Assembly (NCBI RefSeq): GCF_902832885.1
Contig: NZ_CADFDK010000002.1
Location: 682,001-746,000 of the forward strand
Length of the DNA stretch: 64,000 nucleotides
Direction: 5' to 3'
From: Burkholderia seminalis DSM 23518
GTDB lineage: Bacteria > Pseudomonadota > Gammaproteobacteria > Burkholderiales > Burkholderiaceae
Shown here one piece after another: positions 12,054 to 12,557 of the stretch (positions are counted from its first letter, which is position 1; each line of letters opens with the position of its first letter). The notes under the pieces are model-generated. The model was not told the origin of the DNA. It worked only from the letters and a program-made list of their open reading frames with translations, and did no database searches. The position numbers were made by a program, and so were the translations under genes.

Positions 12054-12464
12054 TCACTCCATCTCGACGCGTTGCGCCTCGCGCTCTTCCGCTTCCAGCA
12101 TCGCCTTGACGATCAGGTAGACGGCGGGCAGATCGTCGTCGTCGCGTTTCCAGTCGACGGCTTCCTCGATGTCCGCGGCGACCATCCGGCTGTCGCGCAG
12201 CCGGATGAAGGCATCGACGACGGCCGGATCGTTGCGGTTCAGGAAGCCGGTGTTCGAGAACGCCAGCTCCTCGACATTCAGCAGCGCCTGCCAGCTCATC
12301 GTGCGGACGGCGGCCGGATGGCTGCGGCGCCGCAAGCCGAGCGCCCGCTGCGCGGGGCCGCCGACGACACGCTGAAGATCGACGACCGCCTGCCGCGCGG
12401 CGCGCTCGAAGTGGACGGGATTGAAGCCGGGTTGCTCGGGATCGAATGCGGATGACTGGAACAT
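12054..12464 (-). CDS. Small protein of unknown function under a LexA-type promoter
   Basis: A 136-residue soluble, acidic, mostly helical protein (MFQSSAFDPEQPGFNP onwards) that I do not recognise. It has no membrane span or signal peptide. The C-terminal half is strongly charged and predicted helical, ending EAEEREAQRVEME. The start at 12464 has a good GAGG ribosome site; an upstream in-frame ATG at 12557 lies inside the promoter and is rejected. Its promoter carries a 16-bp LexA box over the -10 element, so expression should rise on DNA damage. It ends 24 nt from fadH, transcribed towards it. A role in the SOS response is inferred from the promoter alone. Confidence 0.82.
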   Translation of the reverse strand: MFQSSAFDPEQPGFNPVHFERAARQAVVDLQRVVGGPAQRALGLRRRSHPAAVRTMSWQALLNVEELAFSNTGFLNRNDPAVVDAFIRLRDSRMVAADIEEAVDWKRDDDDLPAVYLIVKAMLEAEEREAQRVEME

Positions 12465-12521
12465 GGTCGCCTCACTAAAGACCGTCTCGGGTGACGGAAT
12501 TCGGGTCAAATGACGCAGAAA

Positions 12522-12557
12522 CACTGTAAATATATACAGTGATCGACGCACTTTCAA
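12522..12557 (-). promoter_or_regulatory. LexA (SOS) box overlapping a sigma-70 promoter
   Basis: On the plus strand, CACTGTA and TACAGTG are perfect 7-bp arms around AATATA. They include CTGT-N8-ACAG at 12524-12539, the LexA consensus. On the minus strand, the -35 TTGAAA (12552-12557) and the -10 TATATT (12529-12534) are exactly 17 nt apart, and the -10 lies inside the LexA box. This is a textbook repressible SOS promoter for the gene starting at 12464. Confidence 0.85.

Follow-up and report, generated by a model that had tools for sequence, protein, structure and literature searches.

A LexA-box gene of Burkholderia seminalis encodes a diverged relative of the DUF2471 family and is a candidate single-gene SOS unit

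RESULTS

The gene, its promoter and its surroundings

The window analysed in the present study, a 64000-nucleotide stretch of the genome of Burkholderia seminalis DSM 23518, carries on its minus strand a gene for a DUF2471-related protein of 136 amino acids (P0001), whose translation runs from an ATG at position 12464 to a stop codon ending at 12054. The interval 12054–12557 given in the initial annotation is the extent of a TTG-started ORF of 167 amino acids; the gene proper, for the 136-residue protein, is 12464–12054. The protein is small, contains acidic stretches and displays no catalytic motif that we could recognize. Upstream of the ATG, on the same strand, a predicted −35 hexamer, TTGAAA (12557–12552), and a predicted −10 hexamer, TATATT (12534–12529), are separated by a 17 nt spacer, which places the promoter 93 to 65 nt upstream of the start codon. 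The −10 hexamer lies within the palindrome CTGT-N8-ACAG, CTGTAAATATATACAG, at 12524–12539 (read on the minus strand as CTGTATATATTTACAG), and this geometry is exactly as had been described. An operator of this form overlapping a promoter is the arrangement of the LexA (SOS) regulon, and we refer to it as the LexA box on the basis of the pattern match, its matrix score and its conservation.

A Shine–Dalgarno-like GAGG (12470–12473, minus strand) is found 6–9 nt upstream of the ATG, and GAGGCG or GAGACG is present in all 33 sequences scanned. Between the promoter and the GAGG, the minus strand could form a leader hairpin, CCGTC-6-GACGG (12482–12497), with perfect 5 bp arms in 24 of 33 sequences, four pairs in eight and three in one. 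Two divergent orthologues have altered arms that still pair and the hairpin is weakened in nine others; among shuffled sequences, 1.1% attain five pairs. An RNAalifold consensus of 12 sequences chose a different, weak helix, and the hairpin is thus a possible element with the arm counts in its favour and RNAalifold not. Downstream of the gene lies a convergent gene, named by eye as oxidoreductase-like. Neither an imu gene nor a recombinase adjoins the window gene, which is not part of an imuA-imuB-dnaE2 cassette, and the recombinase-like gene that a replication-linked recombinase pair would have directly 3′ of it was not found.

The LexA box compared with chance and with other sites of the genome

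The exact CTGT-N8-ACAG pattern occurs once in the 64 kb window, at 12524–12539. As 0.29 exact matches are expected in a shuffled window and 25 of 100 shuffles contained at least one, the bare presence of the box is weak evidence. The whole genome contains 37 exact sites, compared with 33 for the reversed control pattern. Sequences around the other 36 sites (34 loci) were retrieved and their adjacent ORFs listed; among these genes we could name by eye dinB, lexA (with two boxes), uvrA, recA and imuA, and Pfam confirmed an SRAP protein and a radical SAM protein next to two further sites, although the protein named ImuA by eye had no Pfam match. The lexA, recA and uvrA genes of the host, as named by eye, therefore bear the same type of operator as the window gene.

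A weight matrix was trained on eight SOS sites from this genome (lexA, recA, uvrA, imuA, dinB, SplB-like and SRAP), with the window site left out; the training sites score high by construction. The window box scored 29.4 bits, which ranks it 12th of the 37 exact genome sites. The best 15 of these form a group that reaches at least 25.7 bits and includes every one of the training sites; at the 16th site the score falls to 18.0 bits. None of the random 22-mers, two million at each of two base compositions, attained the score of the window box.

The same genome holds further high-scoring LexA boxes (26.7–37.2 bits) before small uncharacterized genes at L005, L023, L024, L025 and L026. Among their products, those of L023 and L026 match phage families in PHROG, and those of L005 and L025 weakly match one shared PHROG. 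Another LexA box (L004:2995–3010) lies between divergent genes for an SRAP (YedK-like) protein and an uncharacterized 153-residue protein, the latter having, by eye, a short stretch in common with the L026 protein.

Conservation of the box and of the gene in Burkholderia

The box is kept in all 30 orthologous loci of one collection (own genome counted), letter for letter in 28 and with one inner change in two, and in all 32 named orthologous loci of another, where 31 are identical; the two sets overlap in species. Loss of the box from close relatives that keep the gene, which the initial annotation had named as an observation that would speak against its proposal, was sought in both sets and was not seen. 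The −35/17/−10 layout is likewise kept in 32 of 32 named orthologues, with TTGAAA in 31 and TTGATA in one, and TATATT is always present 17 nt from the −35 hexamer. The 390182 bases of these named loci contain 32 exact sites, every one of them in the promoter of the window gene, compared with 0 and 2 matches for two control patterns.

The named orthologues are 70–97% identical with the window protein, the closest being that of Burkholderia sp. BCC1644 (97%), and many of their hosts are members of the cepacia complex. The 12 kb locus of Burkholderia guangdongensis (L139), where identity over the alignment is 70%, still contains the gene with its box, and no match was found there for any of five neighbouring genes of the window. 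The window protein was matched in 32 of 61 sampled genomes (own counted), all of one genus, and five of 36 congeners had no match; among the genomes searched, the gene was seen only in Burkholderia. Variable codon columns number 39, 30 and 95 of 124 at positions 1, 2 and 3 respectively, and dN/dS is approximately 0.14–0.29 in the five pairs computed. These data show that the window gene is under purifying selection.

Relationship to the DUF2471 family

Against Pfam DUF2471 (PF10616) the window protein scores 22.8 bits and so fails the curated cut-off of 25, which two orthologues (in genomes G031 and G025) pass with 25.5 and 25.1 bits. A bridging alignment combined orthologues of the window protein with plasmid proteins and with strong DUF2471 proteins. 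All 12 of its members match PF10616 with E-values of 0.01 or better, and Trp58, Glu65, Ala68, Arg88, Pro113 and Val115 are invariant across the 12 sequences; in addition, tblastn of the window protein to a plasmid DUF2471 gave an E-value of 2e-15. Both the intermediates and the invariant residues thus connect the window protein with the family. Since its own score lies under the curated cut-off, we file it, on sequence grounds, as a diverged relative of DUF2471 and not as a member by the curated rule, so that the earlier statement that it has no recognized family holds for the cut-off but not for the relationship.

A 37-sequence tree places the window branch with Burkholderia plasmid members (support 99/99) and makes the L193 protein, weakly, the nearest neighbour of the window protein (89/56). 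The plasmid copies, for example that of Burkholderia ubonensis pATCC31433, are 29–35% identical in the alignment, and the B. ubonensis plasmid gene has an exact LexA box of its own; unlike the window gene, however, plasmid copies are flanked by an H-NS-like gene on one side and a recombinase gene on the other. The strong Burkholderiaceae branch is homologous with the window protein over most of its length and also has a LexA box upstream, but the window protein is only about 25–27% identical with it and falls under the Pfam cut-off, and the window copy has no adjoining recombinase-like or replication gene. Searches for DUF2471 were positive in all 61 genomes sampled from the genus, in 74 of 150 from the family and in five of 300 from the order (own genome counted in the last). 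Among 369 genomes of the class, profile A1 found nothing beyond the two copies present in the own genome.

The PADLOC anti-phage defence models did not match the window protein up to an E-value of 0.1, and PHROG contained no match for it. Phage records held no match for the strong DUF2471 protein of the own genome, and a search of viral contigs with alignment A1 found no relative. On these four results we rejected a phage or defence gene. A search of PDB sequences found no solved structure related by sequence, and an AlphaFold model made with the window protein and 32 orthologues (mean pLDDT 56, pTM 0.37) was too poor to use.

LexA boxes across the DUF2471 family

Of 36 DUF2471 loci from the genus and order searches, among them loci of further genera and of one further family (L099), 35 have an exact box no more than 350 nt 5′ of the domain. 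The family search added 26 loci, all of them with the box, so that together 61 of 62 DUF2471 loci from Burkholderiaceae and the wider searches carry a LexA box. Lower-scoring members picked from the family search (27.6–109 bits) have an exact box in 11 of 20 cases and none in nine. Two plasmid-like loci, L146 (which ends at a contig end) and L147, were excluded from the box counts; the latter, read for context, has no exact box in 12.4 kb. As judged from these predicted operators, the SOS character of the DUF2471 family is wider than the single window gene. The sole strong locus without a box, L092, has unrelated DNA at the box position. Its DNA departs from that of a sister locus beyond a point some 25 nt 5′ of the ATG, and this upstream DNA resembles the end of a group II intron.

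Plasmid relatives beside imuA-imuB-dnaE2

Of the 17 plasmid regions with annotation, seven have imuB and dnaE2 no more than 3 kb 5′ of DUF2471 and in the same orientation (2.8 kb away in L104). Three Paraburkholderia plasmids (L204, L205 and L209) have the order imuA-imuB-dnaE2-DUF2471 with a gap of 20–22 nt between the last two genes, the dnaE2 gene of L209 being missing from the gene table and located by tblastn; on three Burkholderia plasmids imuA-imuB-dnaE2 is followed by one or two small genes and then by DUF2471. An exact LexA box was found 17–21 nt before imuA in six of the six clusters read (17–19 nt in the three Paraburkholderia plasmids). Of six Burkholderia plasmid DUF2471 genes checked, four have no box of their own, one has a box with one mismatch and one has an exact box; given the box before imuA in the clusters read, several of the plasmid genes without an own box still lie in a LexA-boxed cluster. 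At five plasmid loci (L103, L199, L203, L210 and L211) the stretch read contains no exact box and no imu gene immediately 5′ of DUF2471. A tyrosine-recombinase gene comes next in nine of the 17 annotated regions, and ten of 23 plasmid records with relatives are typed as conjugative.

Relatives beside replication genes and a recombinase-like protein

Five loci read in detail (L140–L144) have an initiator-like gene nearby, assigned to Rep3 by Pfam in L140 and by eye in the others, together with KfrA_N by Pfam in L140 and L141 and ParA/ParB-like genes, named by eye, in L140, L143 and L144. In each of the five a tyrosine-recombinase-like gene lies downstream of DUF2471. As the neighbourhood of L141 and L142 is the start of the second contig in two near-complete genomes, we take the replication-linked DUF2471 locus to be on the second chromosome. 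Among 63 strong family loci, the recombinase-like gene is found downstream on the same strand in 45 (within 600 nt in 37, at 1.6–1.7 kb in eight); in the other 18 it is far away (six) or was not found at an E-value of 1e-20 (12). The genera g28 and g152 have the recombinase in 26 sampled genomes, of which just one has a DUF2471 match.

The recombinase-like protein adjoining the strong DUF2471 gene of the own genome (L140:6829–7848) is conserved across genera. In an alignment with XerD, a conserved arginine is replaced by lysine and a conserved histidine by glutamine, and in alignment A3 the corresponding positions are lysine or threonine and glutamine or arginine in nine of nine sequences. The position taken for the nucleophile is tyrosine in L143 and L144, histidine in L140–L142 and another residue in four plasmid-type sequences. 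Presuming that these arginine, histidine and tyrosine positions are the catalytic ones, the activity of this protein may be altered or lost.

DISCUSSION

The word DUF2471 occurs in none of the papers searched, nor did any title or abstract start there deal with the window gene. A study of the SOS transcriptome of Burkholderia thailandensis was reportedly made in 2013. Two hypothetical genes of beta-proteobacteria, hypA and hypB, were predicted to be LexA-regulated in a comparative study of 2012, which describes hypB as exclusive to Burkholderia (PMC3323433). LexA control was thus predicted there as it is here for the window gene, but the comparison is one of descriptions, as the passages concerned give no locus tag or sequence, and part of the present finding may therefore already have been predicted. 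A 2013 survey of SOS operons describes, in the passages concerned, other families beside imu genes (PMC3765255).

The initial annotation proposed that the gene is LexA-controlled. Strong support for this comes from conservation, from how the box scores among the sites of its genome and from the layout of the promoter, and by sequence we regard this control as near certain. Alternatively, the palindrome could have arisen by chance or could serve a repressor other than LexA. In favour of this are the bare genome count, which barely exceeds the control, and the fact that one match in the window is not rare. The matrix score, however, separates the window box from the lower-scoring sites, conservation is near total in orthologues, most paralogues also have a box and every exact site in 390 kb of orthologous loci falls in the promoter of this one gene, so that we rejected chance, in agreement with the earlier view that the box is hard to explain in that way, and consider this alternative very improbable.

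Our preferred reading, to which we assign a probability of roughly 60%, is that the window gene is a LexA-repressed single-gene SOS unit whose product would be an accessory protein of DNA-damage tolerance. By the established mechanism of LexA, the repressor bound over the −10 hexamer would block RNA polymerase, and DNA damage would lead to RecA-stimulated cleavage of LexA and so free the promoter. The protein might then act by protein contact as an accessory factor, and its likeliest partner would be either the translesion machinery of ImuA, ImuB and DnaE2 or the RecA filament by which that machinery is activated; this partner is suggested because some plasmid relatives directly follow imuA-imuB-dnaE2. 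Like that SOS mutagenesis cassette, which on some plasmids is followed by DUF2471, the window gene appears to be LexA-controlled, but it lies outside any such cassette and encodes no polymerase. The role is assigned from the neighbours of relatives, among which an imu neighbourhood points to translesion synthesis and a replication neighbourhood to replicon upkeep; the window copy has neither neighbour. A specifically translesion-accessory role is put forward only tentatively. Of the two functions originally suggested, DNA damage tolerance gains support from the imu neighbours, but nothing specific was gained for cell-cycle arrest. Counting against the accessory reading are the missing box in nine of 20 lower-scoring members, the presence of imuB and dnaE2 upstream in just seven of 17 plasmid regions and the stronger, apparently chromosomal members, which adjoin a recombinase-like gene instead.

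A different reading is that DUF2471 is LexA-controlled but serves replicon maintenance, holding or resetting replication or partition after damage together with its recombinase-like partner, the window copy being a free-standing derivative. The downstream recombinase-like gene in 45 of 63 strong loci, the initiator-like gene near five loci, with Rep3 in one, KfrA_N in two and ParA/ParB-like genes in three, and the tyrosine-recombinase gene next in nine of 17 plasmid regions would all fit such a role. The partner is nevertheless distant or was not found in 18 of the 63, almost all of the recombinase-bearing genomes of g28 and g152 have no DUF2471 match and no recombinase-like gene adjoins the window copy, and we find this reading rather doubtful. 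DinI and PsiB act on RecA and SulA acts on FtsZ, and the window protein could similarly be a brake that limits the SOS response or cell division; its small size, acidic stretches and LexA control, and the conjugative typing of ten of the 23 plasmid records, would suit such a protein. As Pfam, NCBIfam, PADLOC and PDB sequences gave no link to proteins of this type, and as the imu-linked and replication-linked copies would be left without explanation, a brake seems unlikely. The grouping with plasmid members, the restriction to Burkholderia and the missing match in five of 36 congeners would also be expected if the gene were a remnant inherited, together with its LexA promoter, from a plasmid lineage and had no DNA-damage function now, but its full-length frames are under purifying selection and the box is kept across 32 named loci despite varying flanking DNA, which makes a relic quite improbable.

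Returning to the accessory protein of DNA-damage tolerance, a broader and speculative extension, which we hold to be on balance doubtful, is that DUF2471 could be a Burkholderiaceae-specific extra component of the SOS mutagenesis machinery that connects translesion synthesis with the maintenance of secondary replicons. The family would then occur in three settings, namely on plasmids with ImuA–ImuB–DnaE2, on a large replicon with the recombinase-like protein near replication genes, and as the stand-alone window copy. The present analysis would place an uncharacterized protein family in the DNA-damage response of a multi-chromosome bacterial family and offers two concrete sets of partners, ImuA–ImuB–DnaE2 and the recombinase-like protein near replication genes. 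It also suggests that SOS control may extend to a gene adjoining the replication genes of a large replicon.
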